This document shows, one piece after another, positions 25,413 through 61,742 of a stretch of DNA of 64,000 nucleotides. A program made the translations under genes and the position numbers. Within the stretch, counting starts at the first letter, position 1; every line of letters starts with the position of its first letter. Source of the DNA: Virgibacillus dokdonensis (lineage in GTDB: Bacteria; Bacillota; Bacilli; Bacillales; Amphibacillaceae); NCBI RefSeq assembly GCF_900166595.1, contig NZ_LT745763.1, forward strand, positions 1,706,814 to 1,770,813. The letters are read 5' to 3'. The notes beneath the pieces were generated by a model, which searched no databases, was not told the DNA's origin, and saw only the letters and a list, made by a program, of their open reading frames with translations.

Positions 25413-25486
25413 CGTCCCAGGCAGGATTCGAACCTGCGACCCACAGCTTAGAAGGCTGTTGCTCTATCCAGCTGAGCTACTGGGAC
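25413..25486 (-). tRNA. tRNA-Arg (anticodon TCT)
   Basis: A 74-base cloverleaf on the minus strand. The acceptor stem pairs GTCCCAG with CTGGGAC. The anticodon loop reads CTTCTAA, giving TCT for AGA. The T-arm contains GGTTCGAATCC. No CCA is encoded. It lies just downstream of tRNA-Gly in the same direction, and the pair shares a terminator. Confidence 0.95.
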
Positions 25487-25496
25487 AAGATATGTA

Positions 25497-25570
25497 TGGA
25501 GCGGGTGAAGGGAATCGAACCCTCGTCATCAGCTTGGAAGGCTGAGGTTTTACCATTAAACTACACCCGC
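25497..25570 (-). tRNA. tRNA-Gly (anticodon TCC)
   Basis: A cloverleaf on the minus strand with acceptor stem GCGGGTG/CACCCGC, anticodon loop CTTCCAA (TCC, reads GGA/GGG) and T-arm GGGTTCGATTCCC. The 3' end is T followed by an encoded CCA (25497-25499). It is the first gene of a two-tRNA unit. Confidence 0.95.
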
Positions 25571-35313: not shown

Positions 35314-35622
35314 GTAATCACCTCTGATATGTAGTTCGAATGCTTGCTTCTTTACTTTTGTTGTGATAAAGTACAGACGTGTTATGCACTATGGCTTATA
35401 CGTTATATGCTACCATAATGTTTCAGATTATGTTCACATTTTATTAAATTGTAACGGAATATACATGTTATAATAGTATTTAGAAATGATGTTATTTTAT
35501 ATTTATTATTAATTGGTCATTTATCCTGTTATGCTTGATTAAAAAATTAGTCCAAACTATACGGATAATACCTATTTTTGTAACAGCTATGGAAGTTTCA
35601 TTTTATTTGGGGGTAGATGGTT

Positions 35623-36993
35623 GTGCATATTTTAAAGGTGGGTTTTAATTATAAAACAGCCCCTGTAGAAATTAGGGAAAAGCTTGCCTTTTCGGAAGAT
35701 CATGTTCACGAGGCCATGGTCGCTTTGAATGGGCAAAAAAGTATTTTAGAAAATGTTATTGTTTCCACTTGTAATCGTACAGAAATTTTTGCAGTAGTAG
35801 ATCAGTTGCATACAGGGCGATACTATATCAAGCAGTTTTTAGCTGATTGGTTCGACGAGGAGAAAGCTAGTTTTTCTTCATTTTTGCAAATTGCTGAAAA
35901 TGACGGAGCGATGGAGCATTTATTTCGTGTAATTACAGGATTGGATTCTATGGTATTAGGGGAAACGCAAATCTTGGGTCAAGTGAAGCAGGCGTTTTTA
36001 ACTGCGCAAAAAATGGGGACAACTGGTACTGTGTTGAATGAATTATTTAAACAGGCTATTACGTTTGGTAAGCGTGTACAGAAAGATACGGCAATTGGTA
36101 AACAAGCAGTATCTGTTAGTTATGCAGCTGTTGAGCTAGCAAAGAAAATTTTTGGCGACTTAAAGAAAAAACGTGTTGTTATACTAGGAGCGGGAAAAAT
36201 GGGGGAACTTGCTGTTAAAAATTTACAAGGTTCCGGAGCGAACGACATTACAGTGGTAAATCGTACAAAAGAAAAAGCAGATGCGTTGGCTAAAAAGTTT
36301 GCAGCACGCGCTGAAACAATCGACAGGTTACCTATCGTATTACAAGAAGCTGATATTCTGATTACTTCTACCGGTTCCACATCTGTCATCCTATCAAAAG
36401 AATTGATGGAAGCAGTGCAAAAAGAGCGCAAGGGGAACCCTTTATTTTTAGTAGACATTGCAGTTCCGCGCGACATTGACCCTTCTGTAAGTGAATTAGA
36501 AAATACTTTCTTGTATGATATCGATGATCTGCAACATATTGTTGATGAAAATTTAGAAGCAAGAAAAGAAGCAGCAGAGCAAATTGAGCTGATGTTTGAA
36601 AGTGAAATTGTTGCATTTAAAGAATGGTTAAAGACATTAGGTGTTGTACCGATTATTTCGGCTTTACGGCAGAAAGCACTTTCCATACAAATGGAAACAG
36701 TGAAAAGTATTGAAAGAAAAATGCCTGATCTCACAGAAAGAGAGAAAAAGATCATTAACAAACATACGAAAAGTATCGTCAATCAGTTGCTAAAAGAGCC
36801 AATTACACAAGCAAAAGAAATGGCGGTAGGTGACCGATCCAAGGAATCACTTCAATTGTTTATTGACATATTCGGTATCGAAGCAGAAGTACAAGCAGAG
36901 CTTGATAAGCAGGCAAAAAAAAATGAAACAAATAAAGCAATGAAAAATAAACAAGTATCCTTCCCACTTTTAAATAAGATGCCGACCATATAA
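35623..36993 (+). CDS. hemA: Glutamyl-tRNA reductase
   Basis: A 456-residue first enzyme of C5-pathway haem synthesis: it reduces glutamyl-tRNA to glutamate-1-semialdehyde. The catalytic Cys is C50 in 'VSTCNRTEI'. The NADPH domain has 'GAGKMGELA', and the C-terminal dimer helix follows. GTG 35623 gives 'MHILKVG', matching the B. subtilis N-terminus, and is 9 bases after GGGGG; ATG 35617 is too close. It is first of hemA-X-C-(DB)-L. A TATAAT at 35469-35474 may be its -10. Confidence 0.95.
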
Positions 36994-37009: not shown

Positions 37010-37828
37010 ATGGTAGAATTAAAATGGCTTTATGAATTTATATTAATCATTTATGGGTTAAGCCTGTTCGGATACTTTATTGATTTTGTTCAAGACAACC
37101 GGAGGGTAAATCGAATAGCCTTCTGGTTGCTTAGTTTGGTTTGGATCATTCAAACCTTTTTTTTATTCTACGTAATAATCATTGAAAAAAGTTTTCCGGT
37201 TGTAACCTTAAATGATAGTCTATTTTTTTATTCGTGGATTCTTGTGACGATATCATTACTAGCGAATAAACTATTTCCTGTTAATTTTATTGTTTTTTTC
37301 ACAAATGTATTTAGTTTCTTCATTCTATTGCTTTTTTTGTTGACGGACGCGCAAAAAAATTGGCAGGAGCATGCCGTCCAATTTGTTCATGAAATAGTTA
37401 TTGCACATATAACGATTGCCATTACTTCCTATGGATTTTTTACACTATCATTTTTATTATCCATTATGTATTTAATTCAGTACAAATTATTGAAGCGAAA
37501 AAAAGGTTTTAAGTGGATGTGGCGGTTTGCTGACTTGAACCAATTGGATAGCTATGCATTTAAAACAGTAACCATTGGTGTTCCTTTACTATTAATCGCT
37601 ATTATACTAGGAATTGTGTGGGCTTATGTATCTGATGCTCTATTTTACTGGGTAGATTTAAAGACAATTGGTTCTTTTTTTGTATTGGCTATTTACGTCG
37701 TTTACTTAGTCATCCGTTTATGGAAAAAGTATAAAGGGAGAACGATTGCAATGTATAATACAGTTGCTTTTCTATTGTTGCTAGTCAATTTCTTGTTATT
37801 CAGTACGTTATCGAAATTTCATTTTTAA
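37010..37828 (+). CDS. hemX: HemX, CcsA-like membrane protein
   Basis: A 272-residue protein with eight hydrophobic helices, of the cytochrome-c-assembly (CcsA/CcmC-like) fold. HemX lowers the cellular level of HemA in B. subtilis. Conserved His pairs are near '[20 protein letters not shown]' and the position between hemA and hemC supports the call. AAAGGAA site before the ATG, 16 bases after hemA. Confidence 0.9.
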
Positions 37829-37847: not shown

Positions 37848-38777
37848 TTGCGTAAATTAGTTGTTGGTTCACGAAAAAGTAATCTTGCATTAACACAAAC
37901 CAATTGGGTAATTAATCAATTAAAACAAGCTGGGGTTGAAAATGATTTTGAAGTGAAGAAAATCGTTACAAAGGGGGATCGTATTTTAGATGTTACTTTA
38001 TCTAAAGTAGGTGGGAAAGGTCTGTTTATCAAGGAAATTGAGGAAGCTATGTATAACAAAGAAATTGATTTAGCTGTACATAGTATGAAGGATATGCCGT
38101 CTACGATGCCAGAAGGGTTGATTATAACAACTATTCCAGAGCGTGAAGACCATCGAGATGCGTTTATTTCTAAAGGAAATATTCGTTTAAAAGATTTGCC
38201 AAACGGGGCAATTGTAGGAACGAGCAGTTTACGAAGAGCTGCGCAAATACAAGCTGTAAGACCAGATGTCACTATAAAGTGGATACGTGGTAATATTGAA
38301 ACAAGGATAAGAAAATTAAAGGAAGAAGATTATGATGCGATTGTGTTGGCTGTTTCTGGTTTAAAGCGAGTAGGTTTAAGTGAAACATTAATTACGGAGT
38401 ACTTAGAGCCAGACGTTTGTGTTCCTGCAGTTGGGCAAGGCGCTTTAGCTATTGAATGCCGGGCGGATGATGATGAACTGAAAAAACTCTTAGCAACCCT
38501 TCATGATGAAGATACCGCTCGAACGGTTACAGCAGAACGAACCTTTTTGCATTTGTTGGAAGGCGGCTGTCAAGTACCAATCGGAGGCTATGCATATTTA
38601 CAAGGAGAAACGATTGTACTGACAGCTTTTGTAGGCACACCTGATGGGAAAACAGTCTTAAAGGAAGTGGTACAAGGTAGTGATCCAGAAGCAGTTGGCA
38701 GGAAAGCAGCTACGTTATTACAAAATCGAGGAGCTAAGGAAATTATTGAAAAGGTAAAAGAGGAGTTAAATGAGTAA
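37848..38777 (+). CDS. hemC: Porphobilinogen deaminase
   Basis: A 309-residue hydroxymethylbilane synthase that links four porphobilinogens. '[15 protein letters not shown]' at the N-terminus, '[12 protein letters not shown]' near 80, and the dipyrromethane-cofactor Cys in '[11 protein letters not shown]' (about 241). TTG start at 37848 after AGGGAGAG. Its stop overlaps the ATG of the next gene by one base. Confidence 0.95.
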
Positions 38778-40540
38778 TGAGCTTACCGTTAGATGGGAAG
38801 CGAATCTTAGTCACTCGCGAGCAAGAAAAAGCAACAGATTTTGCGAATAAAATTACTAATTTAGGCGGAGAACCAATACAAGTCCCACTTATTAATATTA
38901 CTTGTAAACGTCCAATAAATGGGGATTTTGCACAACAATTGTCAAATTGTAATTGGATATTTTTCACAAGTGGGAATGGGGTAAGCTGCTTTTTTCAGTT
39001 CGTAAAGCACGACGCTGTCGCTTTAGAGAATGTGGTGCAAACTAAAATTGCTGTTGTGGGAAATAAAACGGATCTTAAGCTAAAAGAAATAACAGGTCGC
39101 TCTGCTGATTTTGTCCCAAGTTCTTTTGATGCTGAGACGATGGCAGAGGAGTTTTTAAGTCAATATCCTACCGACGATCATTTTTTGTTAGTAAGAGGAA
39201 ATCTCTCTAGACATGTGTTGCCAGAGCGCTTTAAACAAAGCAATAAAACTTTTACAATGCTTGAAGTGTATGAAACCCATAAGAATGTCAAAGCAAAACC
39301 GTTGTTGCAATACGCCATAACGGATACTAAGGTTCATTATATTACATTTACAAGCCCGTCTACAGTGGAGTCATTTGTCGATCTAATAGGGGTCAGAAAC
39401 GTCGCACCATGTGTATGCATTGGTACGACAACAGAACAACGGGCGAAGGAATTAGGATTTTCTAAAGTTTTAACAGCAAAAGATTTTACAATTAATGGTA
39501 TGATTGATTGTATAAAGCAAGACGTGATGAAAAGAAAGGATGAAAAAAAAATGACGAACATACCGACTTTTGACAGACACCGTAGATTAAGACGTACGGC
39601 TGGTATGAGAGACTTAGTAAGAGAAACACATTTGCATAAAACCGATCTTGTCTATCCCATGTTTATTGTTGAAGGAGAAAAGGTGAGAAAACAGGTTCCT
39701 TCTATGCCAGGAGTATACCAGTTATCGTTGGATTTACTTACGGAAGAAATAGATGAACTAGAAGAACTTGGTATTCAAGCTGTTATTTTGTTTGGGGTGC
39801 CAAATGAAAAAGATGAACAAGGGACGGGCGCTTTTATTGATGAAGGGATTGTCCAACAAGCTACACGAAAAATTAAAACAAAAGTACCATCAATGCTCGT
39901 AATTGCAGATACTTGTTTGTGTGAATATACGTCTCATGGACATTGTGGAGTCATTCATGACCATGATGTAGATAATGATGCGTCATTAGAGTTACTTGCT
40001 AAAACAGCAGTCTCCCAAGCAAAGGCAGGGGCTGACATTATTGCACCGTCAAACATGATGGATGGGTTTGTAGCAGTTATTCGTCAAGCTTTAGATCAAG
40101 CTGGTTTTACACAAATTCCTATTATGTCTTACGCGGTTAAATATGCTTCTTCTTTTTATGGTCCATTCCGAGATGCAGCAGATAGTACACCACAATTTGG
40201 AGATCGAAAAACATACCAAATGGACCCCGCGAATCGATTAGAAGCACTTCGTGAGGCGAAATCAGATGTTCATGAAGGTGCTGATTTTTTAATTGTAAAA
40301 CCAGCTTTAAGCTACTTAGATATTGTGAGAGAAATGAAGAATAACTTTGATTTGCCGATTGTTGCCTATAATGTAAGCGGCGAATATGCGATGGTGAAAG
40401 CTGCAGCGCAAAATGGCTGGATTGATGAACAGGCGCTGGTTATGGAAAAACTATTATCTATGAAACGAGCTGGAGCAGATCTAATTATAACTTATTTTGC
40501 AAAAGATGTTGCAAAATGGTTAGTAGAAAAAAATAGATAG
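38777..40540 (+). CDS. hemDB: HemD-HemB in one frame: uroporphyrinogen-III synthase fused to porphobilinogen synthase
   Basis: One open frame of 587 codons. Residues 1 to about 256 are a full-length HemD ('[15 protein letters not shown]', '[12 protein letters not shown]'). From residue 259 a complete HemB begins ('[20 protein letters not shown]'). The HemB part has metal-binding Cys in '[15 protein letters not shown]', Schiff-base lysines in '[13 protein letters not shown]' and '[12 protein letters not shown]'. In B. subtilis these are two genes. At the junction AAAGGA (39535-39540) stands 10 bases before ATG 39551, so HemB can also start alone. A run of nine A (39543-39551) lies exactly between. 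It could be a true fusion, a recent loss of the HemD stop, or a one-base reading error in the A-run. Confidence 0.85.
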
Positions 40541-40554
40541 GAGGATGTCTGGTT

Positions 40555-41838
40555 ATGAATTTTGATAAATCCAAAGCTGCTTATGAAGAAGCAGTTGATT
40601 TAATGCCTGGTGGTGTTAATTCACCTGTTCGTGCATTTAAATCAGTAGGTATGTCACCAATTTTTATGGAATCTGGTAAGGGAGCCAAAATAAGAGATAT
40701 TGATGGTCATGAATACATTGATTACGTTTTAAGCTGGGGTCCACTCATTTTAGGACATGCTGATGAACGGGTCGTAACAAAATTAAAGGAAACAGCGGAA
40801 AAAGGTACCAGCTTTGGAGCGCCGACATTATTAGAAAATGAGCTTGCACAGCTAGTTATTGACCGCGTTCCATCCATAGAAATGGTTAGGATGGTTAATT
40901 CAGGTACGGAAGCAACAATGAGCGCTTTGCGTGTAGCAAGAGGCTACACAGGAAGAGATAAAATACTAAAATTTGAAGGGAACTACCATGGTCATGGTGA
41001 TTCACTGTTAATTAAAGCAGGGTCAGGTGTGGCTACACTTGGACTTCCTGATAGTCCAGGTGTTCCTAAAACGATTGCTCAAAATACCATCACGGTTCCA
41101 TATAATGACTTAGAAAGTGTACGTTATGCTTTTGAGACATATGGTGATGATATTGCTGCAGTTATTGTTGAACCTGTTAGCGGCAATATGGGAGTGGTTC
41201 CACCAATAGAAGGTTTTTTACAAGGATTAAGAGAAATTACGGAACAAAACGGCACCGTGCTTATTTTTGATGAAGTAATGACTGGCTTTCGGGTAGGTTA
41301 CCAATGTGCGCAAGGTCATTTTGGAGTGACACCCGATATGACATGTCTCGGGAAAGTAATCGGTGGCGGATTACCAGTTGGTGCATATGGAGGTAAACGG
41401 GAGATTATTGAGAAAGTTGCTCCAACTGGATCCATCTATCAAGCTGGTACATTATCTGGTAACCCGCTAGCGATGACCGCGGGGCTTGAGACATTAAAAG
41501 CGTTAGATGAATCATCTTATGAAGCGATAAATAAAAAAGTGGACCGATTGGTAGAAGGGTTTACAGCGGCTTCCAATAAGCATCATATACCATTGCATAT
41601 TAACCGAGCAGGTTCAATGGTTGGCGTCTTTTTTACTAATGAAAAAGTAATTAATTTTGAAACTGCTCAATCTGCTAATCTTGACTATTTTTCTCAATAT
41701 TATCGCTCTATGATTGAAAATGGTGTGTTCCTTCCACCTTCACAATTTGAAGGCCTGTTTTTATCAACTGCGCATACAGACGAAGATATTGAACATACGA
41801 TAAAAGCAATTGACACAGCTTTTGCTTCTATAGAGTAA
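40555..41838 (+). CDS. hemL: Glutamate-1-semialdehyde 2,1-aminomutase
   Basis: A 427-residue PLP enzyme that makes 5-aminolevulinate from the HemA product. '[17 protein letters not shown]' binds the cofactor phosphate; the PLP lysine is in '[17 protein letters not shown]' (about residue 267). Length is typical. AGGAGG precedes the ATG 14 bases after the hemDB frame. It ends the haem operon; a terminator follows. A second unlinked copy is common in Bacillaceae and cannot be judged here. Confidence 0.95.
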
Positions 41839-45522: not shown

Positions 45523-45844
45523 TGAGACTCTCTCCTTTACATCAGAAATTTGTATTGTTACTATACTATATGTATAAATTGATCTTTTTGGTGCAAACCT
45601 TACTATGTAACGGGTTATTTATTTAAGAATAGATGATAGCACTAGCAATTAGATAAACGTCCACAAACACTTACAATAACAGTGAAGAGTTACATTCTTT
45701 AAGCTGCTTTTTGTCGTAAACATTCCAGAGCTGGGAAAAGAACGCCCTATTTCATTTTAGTGAATAAACAGTTGACGTAAAGAGGAATTATATATAAAAT
45801 AAAGCTATTCTAATAATATGCATGTAAACAATGAAAATGTAAAG

Positions 45845-46130
45845 AATGGGAAGAGTACAGGATAATTATCATGTAGAGATGGAAATCATTGGCTGAAAGT
45901 TTCCTTGAAAGATTATGCTGGAATGTCGCCCAGGAACAGCTCCTTTGAAAAATAAGGCTACGATGATGTCTTCTTTTAAGTAGAAGGAAGCCGGTCTATG
46001 TACCGTTATCAACAAATGAAGTGTGTATACTTTGTTTCTTTATTACACTAGAAGTATACAAATAAAGGTGGTACCACGGAAAGCAAGCCCTTTTCGTCCT
46101 TTTATAGGACAAAAGGGTTTTTTTTACACT
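45845..46130 (+). promoter_or_regulatory. T-box leader of valS
   Basis: The invariant T-box core AAGGTGGTACCACGG is at 46065-46079. The terminator that competes with the antiterminator is at about 46085-46126 (AAGCCCTTTTCGTCC paired with GGACAAAAGGGTT, then T-run). In the specifier region near 45935, GGAATGTCGCCC gives GTC, a valine codon, in the expected place. Uncharged tRNA-Val would therefore switch on valS. Confidence 0.9.
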
Positions 46131-52406: not shown

Positions 52407-53312
52407 GTGAAAAAGGACAAGCGTAAAATAACAGTCTGGAAAAACGGTCAGCAGGTGAAGCTGTCTATGTATTCATCAAAAAATAATGATACAACTGGGG
52501 AGACAGAGAATGAGGAAGCTGCAACACTAACGGATACAGAGGAAGAAGTTCCATCATACGCCCGACTATCTGATAAGAAGTTTTCAGTTTATCCCATATT
52601 TTTTAAAAAAATAAAGCATATGAAACCTTTAATTATTGCCATTGCTTCAGCTTTTATTATAGGGACATTGCTGGGGATTACATTGATTCGAATGTTTGTT
52701 ACCATTGATGAAGATCGCCAAGCCAATAGTGAGGAGAACAACGCTAGCGTGACCGAAACTAGCCGTGAACAAGAAAGGAAAGAACTAGATGGTCACGCAA
52801 ATATAAAAGGTTTTGATATTTTTGTATTGCAGGGAGGCGTTTTTTCTGAAGCAGGAAATGCACAGACGTGGCAAAAGAAGTTTCAAGAGGAAGGGCTACC
52901 TGCAATGATTTGGGAAAAAGATAAGCAATATTTTTTATTAATATCTGCGGCTGCCTCAAAGGAAAAAGCGGAACGGTTAAAAAATGATATCACTTCAGAA
53001 TTGGATATTTATGTAAAAAAATGGCAGATTCATGTGGGAGAAGAGGGACTGAAGAAAGAAGAAAGAAGCTGGATGCAGACATTTGCGGATGTATGGCGGA
53101 AAGATATGCAACAACAAAAAGTATCTAAAGAACAATGGGAATCTACCAAAAAAACTATCCCTAGACGACTCCAAAGCTTAGGTAATGCAATGAATCAACA
53201 TGTAATTGAAGAAAAAAATGATAGGGCTGTAGACTTAGGAGCAAATTTACTAACTTTATGGTATGAATTAATACATGAGCTTAACCGTGAAAAAAAAATA
53301 GTGAACGAATAA
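52407..53312 (+). CDS. spoIIB: SpoIIB-like SPOR-domain membrane protein
   Basis: A 301-residue bitopic protein: cytoplasmic acidic N-terminus (1-75), one membrane helix (about 76-98) and an extracytoplasmic SPOR domain (about 130-215, 'FVLQGGVFSEAGNAQTWQKK'). A charged helical tail follows. SpoIIB helps septal peptidoglycan dissolution at engulfment. Its place after folC matches B. subtilis. GTG start after AGGAGG. The family is poorly conserved, so identity rests on layout and position. Confidence 0.8.
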   Translation: MKKDKRKITVWKNGQQVKLSMYSSKNNDTTGETENEEAATLTDTEEEVPSYARLSDKKFSVYPIFFKKIKHMKPLIIAIASAFIIGTLLGITLIRMFVTIDEDRQANSEENNASVTETSREQERKELDGHANIKGFDIFVLQGGVFSEAGNAQTWQKKFQEEGLPAMIWEKDKQYFLLISAAASKEKAERLKNDITSELDIYVKKWQIHVGEEGLKKEERSWMQTFADVWRKDMQQQKVSKEQWESTKKTIPRRLQSLGNAMNQHVIEEKNDRAVDLGANLLTLWYELIHELNREKKIVNE

Positions 53313-61639: not shown

Positions 61640-61742
61640 GTTATTCATCGTAGCACCAGTGCTACAACCGCTCAGAACAGGTTGTAAACTCAATGTGTAG
61701 TACCTGTATGGCGAGTCTTAGTTTATGGGAGGTGCAAAGTAT
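61640..61742 (+). promoter_or_regulatory. Candidate L21 leader before rplU
   Basis: A 100-base leader with several pairable segments (GCACCAGTGC, AACCGCTCAGAACAGGTT, GTGTAGTACCTGTATGGC). Bacillus rplU operons carry an autoregulatory L21 leader RNA at this place. I cannot confirm the fold without a covariance model. Confidence 0.5.

Follow-up and report, generated by a model that had tools for sequence, protein, structure and literature searches.

The hem operon and the HemD-HemB frame

The window, which is the whole 64-kb stretch of Virgibacillus dokdonensis DNA that was analysed, contains a hem operon on its forward strand. The first gene encodes glutamyl-tRNA reductase (hemA, 35617..36993, +; TIGR01035, 494 bits) and is followed by genes for a membrane protein of the cytochrome c assembly family (37010..37828, +; PF01578, 94 bits) and hydroxymethylbilane synthase (hemC, 37848..38777, +; TIGR00212, 376 bits), a single frame for HemD and HemB, and the gene for glutamate-1-semialdehyde aminomutase (hemL, 40555..41838, +; TIGR00713, 642.6 bits). 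The stop codon of hemC and the start codon of hemD share one base (TAATG). In Bacillus, including B. subtilis, hemD and hemB are separate genes. The order of the B. subtilis operon is named as hemAXCDBL in a passage of PMC10991733, and the membrane protein, which stands at the hemX position, may be called hemX solely by analogy with that order. Elsewhere in the window there are two adjacent tRNA genes (25413-25570, -), a T-box leader (45833-46104, +; Rfam RF00230, 127.6 bits) and a ribosomal protein L21 leader (61656-61728, +; Rfam RF00559, 53.6 bits).

Reading of the open frames in the 64-kb window gives a single frame of 587 codons with an ATG start between hemC and hemL (38777..40540, +). 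Its HemD (uroporphyrinogen-III synthase) part, residues 1-258 (38777..39550, +), matches the Pfam family PF02602 (HEM4) over residues 22-243, with 174 bits against a cut-off of 27.5 and positions 3-230 of a 231-position profile covered. The HemB (porphobilinogen synthase) part, 329 residues with an ATG of its own (39551..40540, +), matches PF00490 (ALAD) over residues 266-581, with 516.6 bits against a cut-off of 24.6 (profile positions 2-317 of 317), and also exceeds the cut-off of the NCBIfam model PRK09283.1 (525 bits versus 297). All of the NCBIfam HemD equivalog models listed were below their cut-offs, the best being NF004583 (151 bits versus 432); the HemD part is a member of Pfam family PF02602 and falls outside the narrow HemD models. 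Both domains are contained within one stop-free DNA frame, as a HemD-HemB fusion requires at the level of DNA. An earlier note, made from the letters of this stretch, had described an uninterrupted 587-codon frame with full HemD and full HemB, and the open frame and its two near-whole Pfam profiles bear this out.

Residues K455 and K508, which we take to be the catalytic lysines of HemB, and C380, C382 and C390, presumably its zinc cysteines, align with E. coli HemB (1b4e). A PDB sequence search (E up to 0.001) found no HemD chain, and the HemD fold is assigned through Pfam. A structure was predicted for one chain from an alignment with 25 rows, which included both fused and single-domain proteins. 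The model (mean pLDDT 84.5, pTM 0.52) has two mostly confident domains, HemD being one of them, and its last HemD helix spans residues 239-260. The pLDDT falls below 50 at residues 259-280, which cover the joint and the first part of HemB, and at residues 457-480 inside HemB. Residues 259-280 of the predicted structure fit a flexible tether, in a single-chain model that has no bearing on the octamer or on activity.

The nine-A run where hemD meets hemB

A run of nine A (A9, 39543..39551, +) lies at the joint, and its last A (39551) is the first base of the HemB ATG. The hexamer AAAGGA (39535..39540, +), a putative ribosome-binding site for HemB alone, is located 10 nt upstream of ATG 39551 and is present before hemB in V. 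chiguensis too. On both points, the placing of A9 exactly at the joint and the intact HemB start formed by AAAGGA and ATG 39551, the sequence agrees with the earlier note. The effect of run length was followed by re-reading the frame in silico with other numbers of A. With A8, HemD is 258 aa long and its TGA stop shares bases with the ATG of HemB (ATGA); with A7 and A10 it is 264 and 265 aa long, respectively, and ends a few codons past the ATGA position; with A9 the 587-aa fusion results, and A6 and A12 likewise fuse the two genes. Run length by itself determines whether hemD and hemB are fused or separate.

A9 occurs three times in the window and T9 not at all, and for this reason A9 is not regarded as rare in itself. 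The second A9 (36915-36923) lies inside hemA, 79 nt before the end of the gene and past its conserved domains, and has the same length in V. chiguensis. The third (53290-53298) is at the end of an ORF (52407-53312) for which neither a Pfam match (E up to 0.001) nor an NCBIfam match (E up to 1e-10) was found; V. chiguensis has A5 at this place and the frame is altered at its end.

Comparison of the hemD-hemB boundary with related genomes, as the earlier note had proposed, found both genes in all eight genus genomes compared, the window's included, and separate genes in all seven of the others. In two of them (G002, G007) the genes share an ATGA stop/start overlap. V. chiguensis CGMCC 1.6496 (G001) has A7 at the joint and a HemD extended by NDEHTDF, and the HemD of Virgibacillus sp. 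Bac330, 264 aa in length, has the same end as this A7 form. A slip-prone A or T run at a frame change, one of the criteria for transcriptional-slippage genes, is present at the joint in the form of A9. Conservation of the run, another such criterion, was not found in the genus, V. chiguensis having A7 and the other six genomes no comparable run. The simplest history would begin with an A8-like ATGA overlap and proceed by steps of +1 or -1, with A8 as the presumed ancestor and A7 and A9 as the runs observed. Comparison of the window with V. chiguensis gives dN/dS values of 0.14 for hemD and 0.05 for hemB, on which both halves act as real coding sequence; the low ratios may mostly reflect the time before fusion.

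HemD-HemB fusions in genomes and protein records

Within the family, HemB was found in 149 of 159 genomes, and its frame exceeds 500 codons in two of the 149, the window's genome and that of Lentibacillus sediminis (G067). A sample of 397 genomes from the order was searched with a profile of the fused proteins (E up to 1e-225), a threshold that leaves weaker-scoring fusions outside the count, and both domains were matched in one register in 82 genomes. One or more stops separate the domains in 79 of these 82, and the three without a stop are the window's genome (G000), L. sediminis and G419. In the class sample 359 of 398 genomes match, and among the matches listed only G000 and G067 have both domains free of stops. 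The L. sediminis frame (locus L047) has CAG at the junction where G005 has TAG before hemB, and that fusion probably arose by substitution of the stop. In G419 (locus L077) the codon is TCA, against TGA in its genus mates G249 and G170, and the six genus mates of G419 in the order sample (G170, G249, G398, G857, G876 and G894) are not fused. As read from these junctions, the fusion in the window differs in kind of cause from the other two, because substituted stops probably account for G067 and G419 and a changed length of an A run for the window. The form is uncommon, as the earlier note had supposed (3/397 in the order sample), yet it recurs through other mutations, and protein databases contain examples of it.

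Longer HemB frames in G057, G070, G029, G303, G236, G441, G215, G401 and G452 were considered as fusions and rejected, a stop or a frame change splitting HemD from HemB in each. HemD and HemB lie in different frames in G441 and G401 (tblastn), and the HemD of G452 is preceded by a part that we assume to be CobA-like and is ended by a stop before hemB.

A protein profile search scored 8000 proteins, and the best 120 include eight HemD-HemB fusion clusters (P0018, P0020, P0021, P0024, P0066, P0069, P0074 and P0075) with 64 member sequences together; the cluster name of P0018 is Geobacillus sp. MMMUD3. P0024 and P0066 have a near-identical linker, with HemD parts 78% and HemB parts 95% identical, and their fusion seems to have lasted, since the joint was kept at 78% HemD identity. 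A further search used the HemD part of the window with length limited to fusion-sized proteins, and gave nine proteins, none with HemB, which by their Pfam domains include the CobA-HemD and HemC-HemD kinds. Neither this search nor the best 120 of the 8000 scored contained the window's protein as a 587-aa record. A HemB identical to that of the window is recorded as P0012, with 329 aa, on four contigs. In L. sediminis, the 327-aa HemB record P0013 is the exact tail of the fused G067 frame, and because a fused frame is there recorded as HemB, the 329-aa record is possibly a trimmed annotation as well. On the same example, protein lengths in databases were set aside as indecisive for the allele that other strains carry, and the 329-aa record neither proves nor excludes separate genes in those strains.

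A literature search with fusion terms, which covered titles, abstract starts and passages of open-licence papers, found no HemD-HemB fusion, a weak absence, and none was found in the portion of PMC10776470 that lists cloned genes. A passage of PMC11237513 describes, for archaea, a HemA-HemB fusion and HemC with a CobA-HemD fusion.

Origin of the fusion and its relation to known systems

We consider it probable that a change in the length of the A run fused hemD into the hemB frame of this hemA-X-C-D-B-L operon and that a 587-residue HemD-HemB is made; as the cause of the fusion, the change in run length is likely. Such a change would bring hemD into the frame of hemB, and the stop that overlaps or precedes the HemB start in relatives would no longer be read. 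Ribosomes arriving from hemD would then read on to give a 587-residue HemD-HemB, composed of two complete enzymes and a short charged tether, and the intact AAAGGA...ATG may still permit some HemB alone. We infer that A9 is correct in the DNA and that cells produce the fusion with both halves active, and HemB is presumably also made from its own start. No sign was found of selection of the fusion for a new function. It appears to be one of a rare, recurrent HemD-HemB kind, which arose here, to judge from the joint, by a change in run length at an overlapping stop and start.

Long homopolymers are a common place for sequencing errors, and a one-base error in the A run was among the options of the earlier note. 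If the ninth A were an error of sequencing or assembly, the strain would in truth have two separate genes, and HemD would terminate either at the TGA within ATGA (A8) or a few codons downstream (A7 or A10). Such an error would agree with the separate hemD and hemB of the seven other genus genomes, with the HemB of the window being recorded as 329 aa on four contigs, and with the absence of a fused record of the window's protein among the matches listed. The homopolymers were checked at A/T runs of at least 8 in 260 kb of the window's genome against the independent assembly of V. chiguensis. There are 43 such runs, 31 of them in ORFs. Local length is the same in 33 of the 39 comparable runs overall and in 28 of the 30 compared within ORFs (25 with the same run; one of the 31 was not comparable). 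The two in-ORF runs that differ are the hemD-hemB joint, which again speaks for an error, and a run close to where another ORF ends. Among ORFs of at least 100 aa in the window's genome, 191 of 218 are full length in V. chiguensis, 20 are without a match and 7 differ, the fused ORF included; in the reverse direction 188 of 224 V. chiguensis ORFs are full length, 24 are without a match and 12 differ. One further single-base frame change occurs within a gene, and there the window's genome is short of an A. Since most runs and ORFs agree with V. chiguensis, the assembly does not have a general weakness at homopolymers. The agreement of 28/30 in-ORF runs makes the proposed one-base error less likely, and we judge an erroneous ninth A to be unlikely.

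A true A9 is also compatible with a slippery site in use, at which slips of the polymerase or the ribosome would yield a mixture of the HemD-HemB fusion, HemD by itself together with coupled HemB, and a lengthened HemD. This is consistent with the fused, separate or extended HemD obtained from different run lengths in silico and with the variation in run length between close relatives. In passages of PMC1088944, an A9 run in Thermus dnaX is reported to give 50% shorter product, and a length of nine is where a large share of genomes show avoidance of such runs. On the other hand, genus genomes other than V. chiguensis (A7) have no such run at the joint, and A9/T9 runs are no rarity within ORFs (5 in 260 kb, or about 90 when scaled to the genome); species with more than 20 such genes were dropped, in the same passages, where the runs were not under-represented. 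The lack of conservation in the genus, together with A9/T9 runs that are not scarce in ORFs, argues against a tuned slippage signal. A mixture of HemD-HemB products in cells is plausible, and slippage in use at this site is a minor possibility to be taken seriously. It is doubtful that the run serves as a mutable slippery switch (lengths of 7 and 9 seen, 8 as the presumed ancestor) whose length and slips set one tethered protein versus two within and between strains; if it did, an essential pathway would alter its enzyme architecture through single-base changes in a run. A bifunctional enzyme selected as such, for example for a fixed HemB:HemD stoichiometry or for HemD tethered to the HemB octamer, is highly improbable. 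HemD-HemB fusions did arise more than once, and P0024 and P0066 retain the same kind of joint with HemD parts only 78% identical, but the fusion is rare (three genomes in 397) and patchy, G419 being fused and its six genus mates not. At many junctions a single codon stands in the way of fusion, so that chance loss of a stop suffices, and steps 2 and 4 of the heme pathway are not consecutive and offer no direct hand-over.

The locus provides an example, at the level of DNA, of how tightly packed operon neighbours may become one protein through a single stop loss. About one fifth of the order sample (82/397) already has hemD and hemB in one register, with the stop retained in 79/82. L. sediminis, fused in its DNA yet listed with a 327-aa HemB, suggests that the number of HemD-HemB fusions may be underestimated. 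Provided that cells make the fused protein, it would be a natural test of HemB assembly with a 28-kDa domain on the N-terminal arm.

Among known systems, Thermus dnaX resembles the window in having A9 in a coding region (a passage of PMC1088944); slippage is demonstrated for dnaX, whereas the window is known from sequence alone. The CobA-HemD and HemC-HemD proteins likewise join HemD to another enzyme of tetrapyrrole synthesis, but in the window the partner is HemB and HemD is at the N end. The HemD-HemB fusions of the databases, such as P0018, are closer in design, with the same domain order, a joint at or beside the native HemB start and lengths of 577-591 aa; their HemD parts are only 27-34% identical to that of the window, their linkers differ, and they were examined as protein records. 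The G067 and G419 frames resemble the window in carrying both domains in one stop-free frame, and they differ in having a substituted stop (CAG; TCA for TGA) in place of an altered A run. In the other Virgibacillus, and in Bacillus too, hemD and hemB stand as separate, overlapping or adjacent genes in a hemAXCDBL operon, whose order the window shares; there a stop terminates HemD, whereas in the window the length of the run carries the frame beyond that stop.
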